Origin: Gemella sp.
GTDB lineage: Bacteria > Bacillota > Bacilli > Staphylococcales > Gemellaceae
Direction of reading: 5' to 3'
Assembly: GCA_030529855.1 (NCBI GenBank)
Contig: JAUMWC010000020.1
Location: 1-33,293 of the forward strand
Length of the DNA: 33,293 nt
A model generated the notes under the pieces. The model ran no database searches, was not told the origin of the DNA, and saw nothing but the letters and a program-made list of their open reading frames with translations. Of the stretch, positions 8,986 through 18,861 are shown one piece after another. The translations under genes were made by a program, and so were the position numbers. The number at the start of each line of letters is the position of its first letter. The first letter of the stretch is position 1.

Positions 8986-10065
8986 CTATCCTCTATTAAT
9001 GTTTATCTTAAATTCAAGCAATAAATCATTCTGTAATTGAGTTGTTTTTTGATCTAAAGCATCATAAACTTCTAATTTTTCCATTGTCTCATCTGTTGGA
9101 TAGAATTGTTCATCAGATGTAACTTCTTCTCCTAGAATTTCATAAGCATCTAATACTGGCGTTGCATAACCAACAAACTCTGCGTTTTTAGCTGCATTTT
9201 CTGGACGAAGCATGAAGTCTATAAACTTGTGAGCTGCTTCTGGGTTTTTAGCAACTTTCGGTATTGCCATATTATCAAACCATAAGTTTGATCCATCTTT
9301 TGGTACTGAGTAAGCTAAATCTTCATTAGCATCCATCATTTCTGCTGCTGATCCAGAGAAAGTAACGGCTGCCTTAGCTTCTCCATTAGCCATAAGTGGA
9401 ATCATCTCATCATTATTAATAGCTCTAATGTTTTTACGCATTAATTCTAATTTTTCTTTTGCTAATTTTAGAGAAATCTCATCTGTTGAGTTAAGTGACT
9501 TACCTTCTGATTGAAGGGCTAAACCTAATACTTCACGTGCTCCATCGATTAATAGAACATCATTCTCTAATCCTTCTCCCCATAGATCATTCCAATCTTC
9601 GAAAGTTTGGTCTTCTCCAACCATTTTAGTATTATATACAATACCTAATGTTCCCCAGAAATAAGGAATTGAATATTTGTTTTCAGGGTCAAATGAAAGA
9701 TTCATCAACTTAGGATTAATTTTATTTAAATTTGTTAATTTAGATTTATCAACTTCTTGTAATAAATCTAATTCTGTCATCTTCTTAATTGTATAATCTG
9801 ATGGAACTACAATATCATAAGCAGTTGATGAATTTTTTAACTTTGTAAGTAAGGCTTCGTTAGAATCAAATGTTTCATAGATAACCTTAATTCCTGTTTC
9901 TTCCTCAAACTGAGTGATAAGTTCTGGGTCAATATATTCTCCCCAGTTATAAACTGTAAGTGTTCCTTCTCCAGACTCTGTACCAGCATCGATATAATCT
10001 CTTGCTTGCAGAAGTCCTACCGAAACTAAAATAATTGCTAAAGCAGATAATAATAATTTTTTCAT
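8986..10065 (-). CDS. potD: Spermidine/putrescine ABC transporter substrate-binding protein
   Basis: This 359-residue protein is a PotD-type periplasmic-binding-protein fold. It has LTVYNWGEYIDPELITQFEEETGIKV near residues 36-61, YDIVVPSDYTIKKM, IPYFWGTLGIVYNT and a late FIDFMLRPENAAKNAEFVGYATP. The N-terminus (residues 1-22) is hydrophobic, but no lipobox cysteine follows (VGLLQARDY). It is therefore probably held by its uncleaved N-terminal helix, not by a lipid. Its ATG overlaps the potC stop by one base, so it is the last gene of potR-A-B-C-D. It hands polyamines to the PotB/PotC channel. Confidence 0.94.
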   Translation of the reverse strand: MKKLLLSALAIILVSVGLLQARDYIDAGTESGEGTLTVYNWGEYIDPELITQFEEETGIKVIYETFDSNEALLTKLKNSSTAYDIVVPSDYTIKKMTELDLLQEVDKSKLTNLNKINPKLMNLSFDPENKYSIPYFWGTLGIVYNTKMVGEDQTFEDWNDLWGEGLENDVLLIDGAREVLGLALQSEGKSLNSTDEISLKLAKEKLELMRKNIRAINNDEMIPLMANGEAKAAVTFSGSAAEMMDANEDLAYSVPKDGSNLWFDNMAIPKVAKNPEAAHKFIDFMLRPENAAKNAEFVGYATPVLDAYEILGEEVTSDEQFYPTDETMEKLEVYDALDQKTTQLQNDLLLEFKININRG

Positions 10066-10871
10066 TATTTAGCTACCCCCTTTTTCAATTTACTTACATT
10101 AATCACGTAGTAAATTACTACTGCAACTATTACGAATAGAGTAATAATTGTAGATAAGGCATTAATTTGTAAGTTTATACCTTGACGCGCCATAGAGTAA
10201 ACTTCTACAGATAACGTCTGGAATCCATTACCAGTAACAAAGAACGTTACCGCAAAGTCATCTAGTGAATAAGTTAATCCCATAAAGAATCCAGCTAAAA
10301 TCCCTGGCGTAATGTAAGGAATAACTACTTTTGTAATAACTTGTCTGTAAGATGCTCCTAAGTCAATTGCTGCATCAATCATAGAAATTGGCATTTCGTA
10401 TAACTTAGGAAGTACCATTAAAACAACGATTGGTACTGAGAAACCAATGTGCGATAGTAATACTGACCAAAATCCTTGCAGTCCATCTAATCCTAACGCT
10501 TCTGAAATAAAGCTAAACATTAATAAGAATGAAGAACCAATGATAACGTCAGGACTTACTATTAAAATGTTGTTTGTTACTAAGTAAGAATTTTTAAATT
10601 TGTTAGTTTTTAACGAGTAGATACCTAAAGCTCCAAGTGTTCCTAAAATTGCTGAGAATACACCTGATAATAAAGCAACTACTATAGTGTTGATTACTAT
10701 TACTATAAGCCTAGTATTTTCCATTAATTCTTGGTAGTGAACCCAAGAGAATCCTTCAAAAGTTACCATATTTTCTCCAGCAGAGAATGAGTAGTAAGCT
10801 AGGTAAAATATAGGAATGTAAAGTATAAAGAAAACTAGACCTAGATATAATTTAGAAGATATTTTATTCAT
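10065..10871 (-). CDS. potC: Spermidine/putrescine ABC transporter permease PotC
   Basis: This 268-residue inner-membrane permease has about six membrane helices. The cytoplasmic EAA loop (MIDAAIDLGASYRQVITKVVIPYITPGIL, about residues 168-196) docks on PotA. N-terminal LYLGLVFFILYIPIFYLAYYSF and the FSWVHYQELM segment are typical of PotC. It is full length and overlaps potB and potD by one base each, giving tight translational coupling within the transporter operon. Confidence 0.94.
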   Translation of the reverse strand: MNKISSKLYLGLVFFILYIPIFYLAYYSFSAGENMVTFEGFSWVHYQELMENTRLIVIVINTIVVALLSGVFSAILGTLGALGIYSLKTNKFKNSYLVTNNILIVSPDVIIGSSFLLMFSFISEALGLDGLQGFWSVLLSHIGFSVPIVVLMVLPKLYEMPISMIDAAIDLGASYRQVITKVVIPYITPGILAGFFMGLTYSLDDFAVTFFVTGNGFQTLSVEVYSMARQGINLQINALSTIITLFVIVAVVIYYVINVSKLKKGVAK

Positions 10872-11683
10872 TATCTTTTACCTCCTAATTTATTTTTCGT
10901 ATTTGTTAAGACCATAATAACAGCCATAACTAGAATTAAGAATACTGCTATCGTAGACCCTAACCCAACATTTTGAGTTACTAGGAAATGTTGTTCAATA
11001 GCTGTACCTAAGTTTATAATTTTGTTACCTGCGATTAAACGAGTAATCATAAAGATTGATAAAGCAGGAATAAAAGTTACCTGTATCCCAGTCTTAACTC
11101 CTTCCATAGATAATGGAAGAATAACTTTTGTAAATGTCGTTTTAAAATCAGCTCCTAAATCATATGAAGCATCAATTAAGTTCTTGTTAATACCAGCTAC
11201 AGCATTGTAGATTGGTAGTAACATAAATGGCATAAAGATATATGCTGATACAAATACAAATGAGAATGAGTTAAATAGTAACGACTGTGTCCCTACTCCA
11301 ATGTATTCTAAAAATGCATTAACTGTACCTTGCTTACCAAATAATCCAATAAAGGCATAAGTTTTTAATAGGATATTAATCCATGTTGGCAAGATTATTA
11401 ATAATAAGATTATCTCTCTATACTTACTTCTTGAAATTATAATAGCTAGTGGATAAGAAATAACTAAACACACTAGAGTAATTATAAGTGCATACCAGAA
11501 TGAATAAACCGTCATCCACATATATGTCTTACCAAAGAACTCTTTATAGTTAATTAATGACCATTCTCCATTAGTGTCCTTAAATGATGAATATAGGATT
11601 AGTAACATTGGAAATACTACGAAAGTTAACATCCAAGCTACATAAGGAATCATAAAAAAGCTTCTACTTTTTTTATCAAACAT
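10871..11683 (-). CDS. potB: Spermidine/putrescine ABC transporter permease PotB
   Basis: This 270-residue permease partners PotC. It has about six membrane helices and an EAA loop, LIDASYDLGADFKTTFTKVILPLSMEGVK, around residues 168-196. An N-terminal PYVAWMLTFVVFPMLLILYSSF helix and LIILPTWINILLKTYAFIGLFG are typical of PotB. It starts two bases after the potA stop and ends overlapping the potC ATG by one base. It forms the transmembrane path with PotC and is powered by PotA. Confidence 0.94.
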   Translation of the reverse strand: MFDKKSRSFFMIPYVAWMLTFVVFPMLLILYSSFKDTNGEWSLINYKEFFGKTYMWMTVYSFWYALIITLVCLVISYPLAIIISRSKYREIILLLIILPTWINILLKTYAFIGLFGKQGTVNAFLEYIGVGTQSLLFNSFSFVFVSAYIFMPFMLLPIYNAVAGINKNLIDASYDLGADFKTTFTKVILPLSMEGVKTGIQVTFIPALSIFMITRLIAGNKIINLGTAIEQHFLVTQNVGLGSTIAVFLILVMAVIMVLTNTKNKLGGKR

Positions 11684-11685
11684 TT

Positions 11686-12774
11686 TTATTCCTCCTCTTC
11701 GTAAGCTTCTAGACGAGCATCGAACTCCTCTTCTGTCTCACCTGGAACCATAATATGAATTGCTTCTGGCTCGAAGTCTAGACTTACAGCTTGACCTGGA
11801 CTAGCAGCTTTTGTAGAGTGAACAATCCACTCATTGTATTGATCGTCTAAACAGCAGATTTCATAATGTACCCCACGGAATAACTGAGTATCAACCACAA
11901 CCTTGATTTTCCCTTGGTCTGCTGGTTTAATCTCTAAGTCTTCTGGACGGATAACTACTTCTACACGTTTGTCTTTTGGAAGCCCCGCATCAACACACTC
12001 ATACTCTCTACCGTAGATTTCTACCTTGTAGTCTTCAAGCATTACTGCGTTAACAATGTTAGACTCTCCGATAAAATCAGCTACGAATCTGTTAACTGGC
12101 TCATCATAGATATCTAAAGGCGTTCCTGATTGTTCAATCTTACCTTTGTTCATTACGAAAATGTAATCACTCATGGCTAGAGCTTCTTCTTGGTCGTGAG
12201 TTACATAGATAAATGTAATTCCAGTCTGTTGTTGAAGTTCACGAAGTTCATATTGCATCTCTTGACGCAGTTTAAGGTCAAGGGCTGATAATGACTCATC
12301 AAGTAAGATAATTTCTGGTTCGTTAACAATAGCACGAGCAATCGCAACACGTTGTTTTTGTCCACCAGACATTTCAGAAATTTCTCTCTTTTCAAATCCT
12401 TCTAAGTTGATTTGTTTTAGAGCTTTTCTTACTTTTCTATCAATAGTTTCTTTATTTTCATTTTTAATTCTTAATCCGAATGCTATGTTTTCATATACAT
12501 TCATATGTGGGAATAAGGCGTAGTCTTGGAATACAGTGTTTACTTGTCTTAAGTTAGCAGGTACTGTATTTACTACCTTATTATCTAATAATACTTCTCC
12601 GCTAGTTGGCTGTAAGAATCCACCGATTAATTTTAAAATAGTAGACTTACCACAACCAGAAGGTCCTAATAGAGTGTAGAATTTACCTTTTTCAATTTCA
12701 AGGTCAATATTTTTTAAAACATTATTTTCACCAAAAGACATTGAAACGTCTTTAAATTCAACGATATTTGCCAT
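11686..12774 (-). CDS. potA: Spermidine/putrescine ABC transporter ATPase
   Basis: This 362-residue protein is an ABC ATPase with Walker [10 protein letters not shown] (37-45), Q-loop [10 protein letters not shown] (81-90), signature MSGGQKQR (135-142) and Walker B IILLDES (155-161). It ends in a TOBE-type C-terminal regulatory region (about 240-355). It hydrolyses ATP to drive polyamine uptake through PotB/PotC. The acidic tail [18 protein letters not shown] is longer than I expect. It follows the cupin regulator by nine bases with AGGAGAAAAC before the ATG. Confidence 0.95.
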
Positions 12775-12783
12775 TGTTTTCTC

Positions 12784-13329
12784 CTATAAATATGAATTTG
12801 TCGCTACTATTAAAACTTCACACTCTTCATCAAATGGATTTGATAAAGTATGCTCGTCAGTAGCCGTAAAATAAAATGTTTCTGCTGTTTCAGCTATATA
12901 TTCTTCGCTACCAAAAGTTAGTTTACACTTACCTTTCAGTACATAGCAAAGAGTGTCCGACTCTGATGGGTCGAATGTTTTGTATGAAGACTTACTTTCA
13001 AGAGTTAGGATTAAAGACTCCATTTCTTTTTCATTAGATTCAGGAACAAGCCAATTTAATTTATACATATCATCAGTTTCTTCATATAAAGTTTGATCTT
13101 CTTTTGTATATAAAATTTGTTGTTCTTCTGCTTCTTTATCAAAGAAATCCTTAGGTTTACATCCTAAAACTTGCAAGATATCAAAAAATGTTTCCATAGA
13201 TGGAGAAGATAAATCACGCTCTATCTGAGAAATATATCCCTTAGACAGGTCTGTTCTCTCTCCCAACTCTTCTTGAGTTAAACCTTTTTGAATTCTTAAT
13301 TTTTTTATTCTATGTCCTATAGAGTTCAT
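12784..13329 (-). CDS. potR: XRE-cupin regulator of the polyamine transport operon
   Basis: This 181-residue protein has an XRE helix-turn-helix (residues 6-60, HRIKKLRIQKGLTQEELGERTDLSKGYISQIERDLSSPSMETF). A C-terminal cupin domain follows (about 108-180, SSYKTFDPSESDTLCYVLKGKCKLTFGSEEYIAETAETFYFTATDEHTL). XRE-cupin proteins next to potABCD are known polyamine-responsive regulators, comparable to PuuR. Here it is the first gene of the operon, nine bases before potA. Its likely operators are the three 19-bp sites at 13342-13422. Ligand identity is inferred from context. The ATG follows GAAAGGA. Confidence 0.88.
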   Translation of the reverse strand: MNSIGHRIKKLRIQKGLTQEELGERTDLSKGYISQIERDLSSPSMETFFDILQVLGCKPKDFFDKEAEEQQILYTKEDQTLYEETDDMYKLNWLVPESNEKEMESLILTLESKSSYKTFDPSESDTLCYVLKGKCKLTFGSEEYIAETAETFYFTATDEHTLSNPFDEECEVLIVATNSYL

Positions 13330-13341
13330 AAATATCCTTTC

Positions 13342-13360
13342 AGTTTACTTTTAATAAACT
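13342..13360. promoter_or_regulatory. Operator 1, AGTTTA-N7-TAAACT
   Basis: A 19-bp inverted repeat starting 13 bp upstream of the potR ATG, next to its ribosome binding site. It is one of three matching sites spaced 31 bp start to start. Confidence 0.7.
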
Positions 13361-13372
13361 TTAATTTTAAAA

Positions 13373-13391
13373 AGTTCACTTAAAATAAACT
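13373..13391. promoter_or_regulatory. Operator 2, AGTTCA-N7-TAAACT
   Basis: Second 19-bp site, with one mismatch (C for T) in the left half. It starts exactly 31 bp after operator 1, about three helical turns, so bound proteins would lie on one face of the DNA. Confidence 0.7.
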
Positions 13392-13403
13392 TATTGTTTA
13401 GAA

Positions 13404-13422
13404 AGTTTAGTAATAATAAACT
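13404..13422. promoter_or_regulatory. Operator 3, AGTTTA-N7-TAAACT
   Basis: Third site, with perfect half-sites, starting 31 bp after operator 2. A further left half-site AGTTTA at 13426-13431 follows without a matching right half. Confidence 0.7.
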
Positions 13423-13503
13423 AAAAGTTTATTATTTTTAACAACAAGAATATATTTTACTTCAAATAAATGTAAATTGCAAGTGTTTTTCTACTATTCT
13501 TTA

Positions 13504-13532
13504 TTGCTTTTTTTATAGAATAAAATTATAAT
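13504..13532 (+). promoter_or_regulatory. Promoter of the aminotransferase gene
   Basis: TTGCTT (13504-13509), 17-bp spacer, TATAAT (13527-13532), 30 bp upstream of the ATG. It faces away from potR. Confidence 0.65.
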
Positions 13533-15827: not shown

Positions 15828-16694
15828 TTAATAATTTTCTTTTAGGTGTTGCTCTACTTTAAGGGCTAACTTTTCATTCTTATCTTCTTCATAATAGAAA
15901 ATAGCCTTTTTGTAAAACTTCTTGACTTCTTCAATCTCCTTGAAATCTTCGCTTATATCACCTAATAGACAATATAAATCACCCAAGGCATAGGATACTC
16001 TATGCTTTTTACAAAACTCTATTGTTTCCATAAGTTCTTCTAGTGCTTTTTGATTTTTGTCATTTGAGTATAGGTATAATGAATAGTTATATCTGAAGCG
16101 AATGATTGTATACACTTCTTCTAGTTTTATAGTTTTTATTTTATTAAATACAAGTGACGTTTCTTCATAACATTTCTCATAAGCTTTAGTATCATCTATC
16201 TCTAAAAAGAAATTTAATAAAGTATTAGCAATAACTAGGTATAGTATATCTTTTTCACTCACTTGTTGTAATGTTTTTTCTAATTTTGTTATTGCATTTT
16301 TCTTCTTATTATCTACGTAAAAATCTACCATAGCACCTATCCAAGATAGATATACTTGGTCAGATATCGTTAATTTACTTACTTTAGATACTTCTAACTC
16401 ATATAGATATTTTAAATTTTCATAATCATTCTCATCTAATAATTTTCGTGTTAATTCCCTAAAATTATCAAGCGATTCTGATTTTTCTTCTACATTTTTG
16501 TCAAAAAAGTATTCTACACTCACATTTAACTTTTTAGCTAATTGATATAACAACTCTGCTCCAGGAGAATAGTTCCCCCTTTCAATTCTACTAATCCTAG
16601 CTTGTTTGCAAATTCCTTCTGCAACTTCTGCTTGTGACATATTTAATTCTAATCTTCTATTTTTAAATCTTGTTGCTAATAATCCACTAGTCAT
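15828..16694 (-). CDS. XRE-TPR transcriptional regulator (RRNPP/Rgg-PlcR type), paralog 1
   Basis: This 288-residue protein has an N-terminal XRE domain (residues 6-62, LATRFKNRRLELNMSQAEVAEGICKQARISRIERGNYSPGAELL). A fully helical C-terminal region with TPR-like repeats follows (about 75-288). RRNPP regulators use this region to bind small secreted peptides. The closest relative in the window is the gene at 17986-18861, with the same opening and GNYSPGAELL. Start ATG 16694 follows AAGGTGG; a GTG at 16703 overlaps that site. No pheromone-like small ORF is seen beside it. It lies 133 bp upstream of two membrane-protein genes on the same strand. Confidence 0.85.
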   Translation of the reverse strand: MTSGLLATRFKNRRLELNMSQAEVAEGICKQARISRIERGNYSPGAELLYQLAKKLNVSVEYFFDKNVEEKSESLDNFRELTRKLLDENDYENLKYLYELEVSKVSKLTISDQVYLSWIGAMVDFYVDNKKKNAITKLEKTLQQVSEKDILYLVIANTLLNFFLEIDDTKAYEKCYEETSLVFNKIKTIKLEEVYTIIRFRYNYSLYLYSNDKNQKALEELMETIEFCKKHRVSYALGDLYCLLGDISEDFKEIEEVKKFYKKAIFYYEEDKNEKLALKVEQHLKENY

Positions 16695-16769
16695 AATAAC
16701 CACCTTAAATTATTCTTTTATGTATCTTTATAAAATATATTAACATATTTTTCGTTTATCATAAAGAAA

Positions 16770-17985: not shown

Positions 17986-17999
17986 TTAATTTCTCTTTT
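17976..17999 (-). terminator. Terminator of XRE-TPR paralog 2
   Basis: AAAAGAGAA / TTCTCTTTT hairpin (loop CTTAAT) overlapping the stop codon, with TTTTTTATTT after it on the minus strand. Confidence 0.7.
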
Positions 18000-18861
18000 C
18001 ATAATTATCCTTTAGATATTTTTCTAAAACTAATATCATATTTTTATTGTCATCAAGTTTGTAAAGTGTATGTGCCGCTTCATAATACTCTTTGACTTTC
18101 TCTTCACTTAGAAAATCTTGACTCACAGTTCCTAATAAAAAATATAAATCTCCTAATAAATATCTAGAATTATATTTTTTACTCAATTCCAATATATCAG
18201 TTATCTCTACGATAGTTTCTTCAACTTGCTTATTTTCCCATAGATGATGACAGTAATTGTATTTGAATTTTATCAGTGCTTCTACATCTTCCACACTTAA
18301 AATTTTTATTTTAGATAACCTACTAGAAATCTCTTCGTATAATTTCTCATATTCTTCTTTCATATTTGATTCAGAATACATATTTAACAAATCAAAGTTT
18401 ACTTTAAGATATAGTTTATCTTCTTCACTAATTTCTTGCGATAAACCTTCTAATTTTGCGATGGCTTTTGCACTATCTTTTTCTATATTATATATTATAA
18501 CCGCTTCTACCAATTCTAAATAATGTTGTTCTCTAATTGTTAATTTCTGCTTTTTACTTATTTCTAGGTCGTAGACATATTTTAATTTTTCATAATCTCT
18601 TTGAGATAAAAAGCTTTGAGCAATTTCTTTAAATTTTTCTAAACTTTCTATTTCTTCCTCCACCGACTCATCAAAAAAATAATCCATTGGAACTCTTAAT
18701 TTTTTAGCTAATTGGTTAAGTAATTCTGCACCAGGAGAATAGTTCCCTTTTTCTATAAGACTTAGCTGCCCTTGTTTACATATCCCTTCTGCAACTTCTA
18801 CCTGAGATAATTTTAACTCTAATCTTCTATTCTTAAATCTTGTAGCAAGTAATGTACTCAT
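17986..18861 (-). CDS. XRE-TPR transcriptional regulator (RRNPP/Rgg-PlcR type), paralog 2
   Basis: This 291-residue paralog of the gene at 15828-16694 shares LATRFKNRRLELKLSQVEVAEGICKQ, GNYSPGAELLNQLAKKL and the overall length. An XRE domain occupies residues 5-62 and a helical TPR-like region about 75-285. The recognition helix differs (GQLSLIEKG against ARISRIERG), so operators may differ. The ATG follows AGGAGAAAGT. Its leader holds a perfect inverted repeat with 13-bp arms (18883-18913) between a TATAAT and the ribosome binding site, suggesting autoregulation. It has no adjacent pheromone gene that I can identify. Confidence 0.85.
   Translation of the reverse strand: MSTLLATRFKNRRLELKLSQVEVAEGICKQGQLSLIEKGNYSPGAELLNQLAKKLRVPMDYFFDESVEEEIESLEKFKEIAQSFLSQRDYEKLKYVYDLEISKKQKLTIREQHYLELVEAVIIYNIEKDSAKAIAKLEGLSQEISEEDKLYLKVNFDLLNMYSESNMKEEYEKLYEEISSRLSKIKILSVEDVEALIKFKYNYCHHLWENKQVEETIVEITDILELSKKYNSRYLLGDLYFLLGTVSQDFLSEEKVKEYYEAAHTLYKLDDNKNMILVLEKYLKDNYEKRN

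Follow-up and report, generated by a model that had tools for sequence, protein, structure and literature searches.

A predicted PotR operator array in the leader of the Gemella potR-potABCD operon

A contig of Gemella sp. of 33,293 nucleotides, analysed here over its whole length (the window), carries three short inverted repeats at even steps between a regulator gene, potR, and a divergent aminotransferase gene. Their arrangement raises the question of which protein would bind them, which of the flanking genes they serve and in what direction they would act.

The potR operon and its repeats

The potR gene (12784..13329, minus strand) encodes a regulator of 181 aa with an XRE helix-turn-helix and a Cupin_2 domain, HTH_3 and Cupin_2 both exceeding their gathering scores as expected of an XRE-cupin protein. 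Its closest relatives belong to Gemella, and conservation within the protein is highest in the helix-turn-helix, which is nearly invariant in 85 orthologues. As in the potRABCD operons of other Bacilli, potR heads a polyamine-uptake operon with the genes for an ATPase (potA, 11686..12774), two permeases (potB, 10871..11683; potC, 10065..10871) and a substrate-binding protein (potD, 8986..10065), all on the minus strand. The ATPase scores above the cut-off of TIGR01187, with the other three having PotB, PotC and PotD as their best matches, below cut-off. Among the potR loci, potA directly follows potR in 109 of 110, a count in which some genomes appear twice as they came from two collections. 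Two similar proteins of 291 aa are encoded elsewhere in the window on the minus strand (15828-16703 and 17986-18861), each having an XRE domain at the N-terminus followed by a long C-terminal region; they give the impression of peptide-responsive regulators of the Rgg/PlcR kind and are possibly a duplicated pair.

The repeats follow the pattern AGTTTA-N7-TAAACT and are numbered here along the minus strand from the promoter side. O2, the promoter-nearest of the full dyads (13404..13422, AGTTTAGTAATAATAAACT on the plus strand), and O4 (13342..13360, AGTTTACTTTTAATAAACT) are exact, while O3 (13373..13391, AGTTCACTTAAAATAAACT) has one mismatch. Start to start, both steps (13342, 13373, 13404) measure 31 bp, and O4 stops 1 bp short of the potR ribosome-binding site AAAGGA (13335..13340, minus strand, from sequence). 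A palindromic matrix trained solely on 73 non-Gemella potR leaders, with a consensus of about AGTTTACTATTAGTAAACT, placed O2, O4 and O3 as the top three sites of the 33-kb window (scores of 22.1, 21.5 and 13.1), the fourth-best scoring 10.0. Across the whole 1.61-Mb Gemella genome the exact pattern was found twice, both times in the potR leader. When one mismatch was allowed, 20 sites were found in the genome compared with 23 for the reversed control, so that there is no excess otherwise, and three of these 20 lie within these 81 bp. With two mismatches allowed, 8 matches were counted in the window where 8.4 would be expected and, because this count is at chance level, such loose matches carry no meaning. 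The three operators proposed at these positions by a first-pass annotation are thus borne out by the pattern matches, the uniqueness of the exact copies and the matrix ranks.

Upstream of O2 lies a half-site, O1 (13426..13431, minus strand), which reads TAAACT on the minus strand and precedes the corresponding arm of O2 by 22 bp. The partner that would complete its dyad (13439-13444) is degenerate, and a full dyad at this place scores only 3.1 in the window. The interval given in the first-pass annotation ran up to 13431, where O1 also ends, although the half-site was left unnamed. In 59 of 84 orthologous leaders TAAAC is present at exactly −9 to −5 before the first dyad, with three leaders at most for any other neighbouring offset, and this conserved half-site is the right arm of the dyad displaced by 22 bp. 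A possible accessory half-site, TAAACA (13395..13400, minus strand), was seen between O2 and O3, again at −9 to −5 before the dyad (here O3); it is weak, because TAAAC stands at exactly this offset in only six of the 26 later sites of Gemella. In leaders of Bacillaceae (e.g., L058 and L074) a sequence resembling TTTATTGACT recurs in the 12-bp spacer before the second dyad, its AC sitting at the same offset as in the TAAAC half-site. This sequence could be an accessory half-site that has become degenerate, or else a second, weak −35 element.

Conservation of the sites across Bacilli

To compare the leaders, sequences were taken from 109 potR loci, of which 85 were left once near-identical ones had been removed, and dyad pairs were counted at a threshold of 5 bits with 30 rounds of dinucleotide shuffles as control. 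Dyad pairs at exactly 31 bp numbered 34 in non-Gemella and 20 in Gemella leaders, with none in the shuffles. Dyads so spaced stand before potR in Bacillaceae and the other Bacillales (30 of 34 adjacent pairs), in Listeria and in Gemella. The exact period read from the window is therefore upheld, the same step dominating the orthologous leaders, and the scan of related genomes suggested in the first-pass annotation found the dyads before orthologous potR-potA operons from Gemella to Bacillus and Listeria. The window leader shares with those of many other Bacilli the dyad, the 31-bp spacing and the half-site upstream. A chance origin in AT-rich DNA, with which the loose matches in the window would agree, has next to no probability and is already refuted by this comparison, as site, spacing and half-site are all kept across Bacilli. 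The retention of sites and spacing before orthologous potR-potABCD operons supports their reading as operators of PotR, which from sequence comparison they very probably are. Because the same sites and spacing recur across Bacilli, it is very probable that they are real and constitute an ancient self-control switch of polyamine uptake.

The number of dyads differs between lineages, the family assignment of some of the source genomes in this comparison being derived from relatedness. One dyad per leader was found in Staphylococcaceae, Enterococcus and Exiguobacterium, mostly two in Bacillaceae and other Bacillales, two or three in Listeria and two to five in Gemella. Some Gemella leaders (e.g., L010) have a fuller dyad at the O1 position and a series of 22-31-31-31. 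In Gemella haemolysans (L038, the same as L010) this gives five evenly stepped sites at roughly 33-167 bases before potR, the longest array among the leaders compared; its dyads farther from the promoter have drifted to AGTTAGATAATAATAAACA, in which the left arm is altered.

Beyond these orthologues, 13 XRE regulators from the same order but more distantly related had no site above 6.9 bits in or near the gene; a 40%-identical potR from another family had a site scoring 17.5. When the matrix was applied to part of the window's own Gemella genome, no convincing second PotR target was found. The other candidates score lower, and three of the strongest (12.9 to 15.9) fall within reading frames such as infA; a second target is therefore not claimed, and a whole-genome PotR regulon was rejected.

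Position of the sites and likely mode of action

A sigma-A promoter of potRABCD was predicted at 13454..13482 on the minus strand (TTGCAA-17-TAAAAT) by a promoter scan and has counterparts in relatives, its motif placing the transcription start of potR at about 13447. Given this start, all of the operator sites lie in the leader, between the start and the potR ribosome-binding site. The operators had been expected to cover both the potR leader and the potABCD promoter; the first holds and the second does not, every site being downstream of the promoter motif. This is also the case in nearly all of the leaders, with the first dyad beginning 19-32 bp past the −10 element in most of them. At 10.5 bp per turn, 31 bp corresponds to 2.95 turns and 22 bp to 2.1 turns, and bound dimers would therefore occupy about one face of the DNA, which agrees, roughly, with the alignment on one face that had been suggested.

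Taken together, it is considered likely that the sites form an autoregulatory PotR operator array of potR-potABCD, the cooperative filling of which represses the operon, with polyamine promoting the repression. The 19-bp dyads, with a consensus of about AGTTTACTATTAGTAAACT, would be occupied by PotR dimers in an array that begins by the transcription start with the half-site and a dyad 22 bp apart and then runs in 31-bp steps, nearly on one DNA face, up to the ribosome-binding site. Filling of the array, probably cooperative, would block promoter clearance or elongation, and PotR would thereby repress its own operon. A repressor that stops clearance or elongation suits sites placed between the transcription start and the start codon. 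Polyamine would most likely favour repression, resulting in end-product control of import. A co-repressor role for polyamine is suited by data from a Staphylococcus aureus mutant, in which 1 mM spermine lowered potA, B, C and D by 2.1 to 4.7 log2, or 4- to 25-fold (PMC6276629, Table 1). Against this, pot was induced in co-culture and the effect likened to that of polyamine exposure (PMC6851120), which implies that polyamine, like co-culture, shifts pot expression upwards.

The position of the sites also bears on whether PotR could instead activate potABCD, the array being an activating site that polyamine releases or alters. Activators normally bind upstream of the promoter, whereas these sites are downstream of it in nearly all leaders, and the promoters of many Bacillales are near consensus (TTGAAG or TTGCAN with TATAAT); both points count against this reading. 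PotR of S. aureus is nevertheless called an activator of potABCD (PMC9871828, citing Yao and Lu 2014), and lowered potABCD with spermine would also be expected if polyamine switched an activator off. Activation is judged unlikely and, because the literature on PotR and the polyamine effect conflicts, the repressor sign proposed for PotR is based on site position.

As the repeats fall within the predicted potR transcript, they could also, instead of being DNA operators, work as leader-RNA hairpins in attenuation or the control of translation, and the 118-nt leader RNA does fold better than shuffles (z −4.3). Good folding is, however, expected of any set of inverted repeats, and the predicted fold leaves the ribosome-binding site unpaired. 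In the 147 sites compared, the arms hold one consensus without covariation (pairing between columns 7 and 13 occurs in 41 sites, compared with 50.6 by chance), and hairpins need no exact 31-bp steps. A search of the leader against Rfam gave no family match. An RNA element, regarded as highly improbable, was rejected on the lack of covariation and of an Rfam match, and DNA operators are the better reading.

If the sites are such operators, the differing copy number could possibly reflect a graded switch, a tentative idea in which lineages would keep the recognition sequence constant and add 31-bp units, in phase with the helix, downstream of the transcription start; PotR dimers lined up on the leader in a polyamine-dependent chain would then tune repression cooperatively.

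It had further been suggested that control may extend to the aminotransferase, which is divergent from potR with 233 bp between the start codons. The comparison does not support this. The likely aminotransferase promoter (13504..13532, plus strand, TTGCTT-17-TATAAT), recognized by eye and below the promoter-scan threshold, lies outside the array, approximately 70-80 bp away from the closest operator element. Among the potR loci, the aminotransferase adjoins potR only in the window and in Gemella sp. GL1; its orthologues in 12 further Gemella genomes are located elsewhere, away from potR, and no array was found at any of these 12, the best single-site scores being 1.6 to 11.9. Control of the aminotransferase by PotR is thus unlikely, and the chance that the array also governs this gene is rated as slight.

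Significance and relation to known systems

The PotR-type regulator and its operon are already known, and it is likely that the operator array is new in detail; in the literature searched, no PotR operator sequence or array was found. The array offers an operator code, open to testing, for polyamine import in many Bacilli, including Staphylococcaceae, Listeria and Enterococcus, for which the literature on the pot regulator leaves the sites, and even its sign as activator or repressor, unsettled. The graded differences in how many phased sites each lineage has also provide a natural series for the study of cooperative repression.

Like PotR, PuuR of Escherichia coli combines an XRE and a cupin domain and is polyamine-related, and it gave the best full-length NCBIfam match to PotR of the window. 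At 53.8 bits against a cut-off of 211, PotR was rejected as a PuuR equivalog. PuuR leaves its site on binding putrescine (PMC7901475), whereas the S. aureus pot genes fall with spermine (PMC6276629). The Pseudomonas regulators PauR, PsdR and ErfA resemble PotR, as it is proposed here, in being XRE-cupin proteins that control local metabolism and bind palindromes as dimers; their consensus sequences differ among themselves, and the portion of the source seen makes no mention of a 31-bp-stepped array for these repressors (PMC7901475). The nearest counterpart is the PotR/potRABCD system of S. aureus, which, as described in papers citing Yao and Lu 2014, has the same potR-potA-B-C-D order, an XRE regulator and a link to spermine/spermidine uptake, its PotR having been called an activator there, unlike the repressor proposed here. 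The leaders of Staphylococcaceae carry the same dyad with the half-site at 22 bp, with one dyad in place of the three plus half-site of the window.
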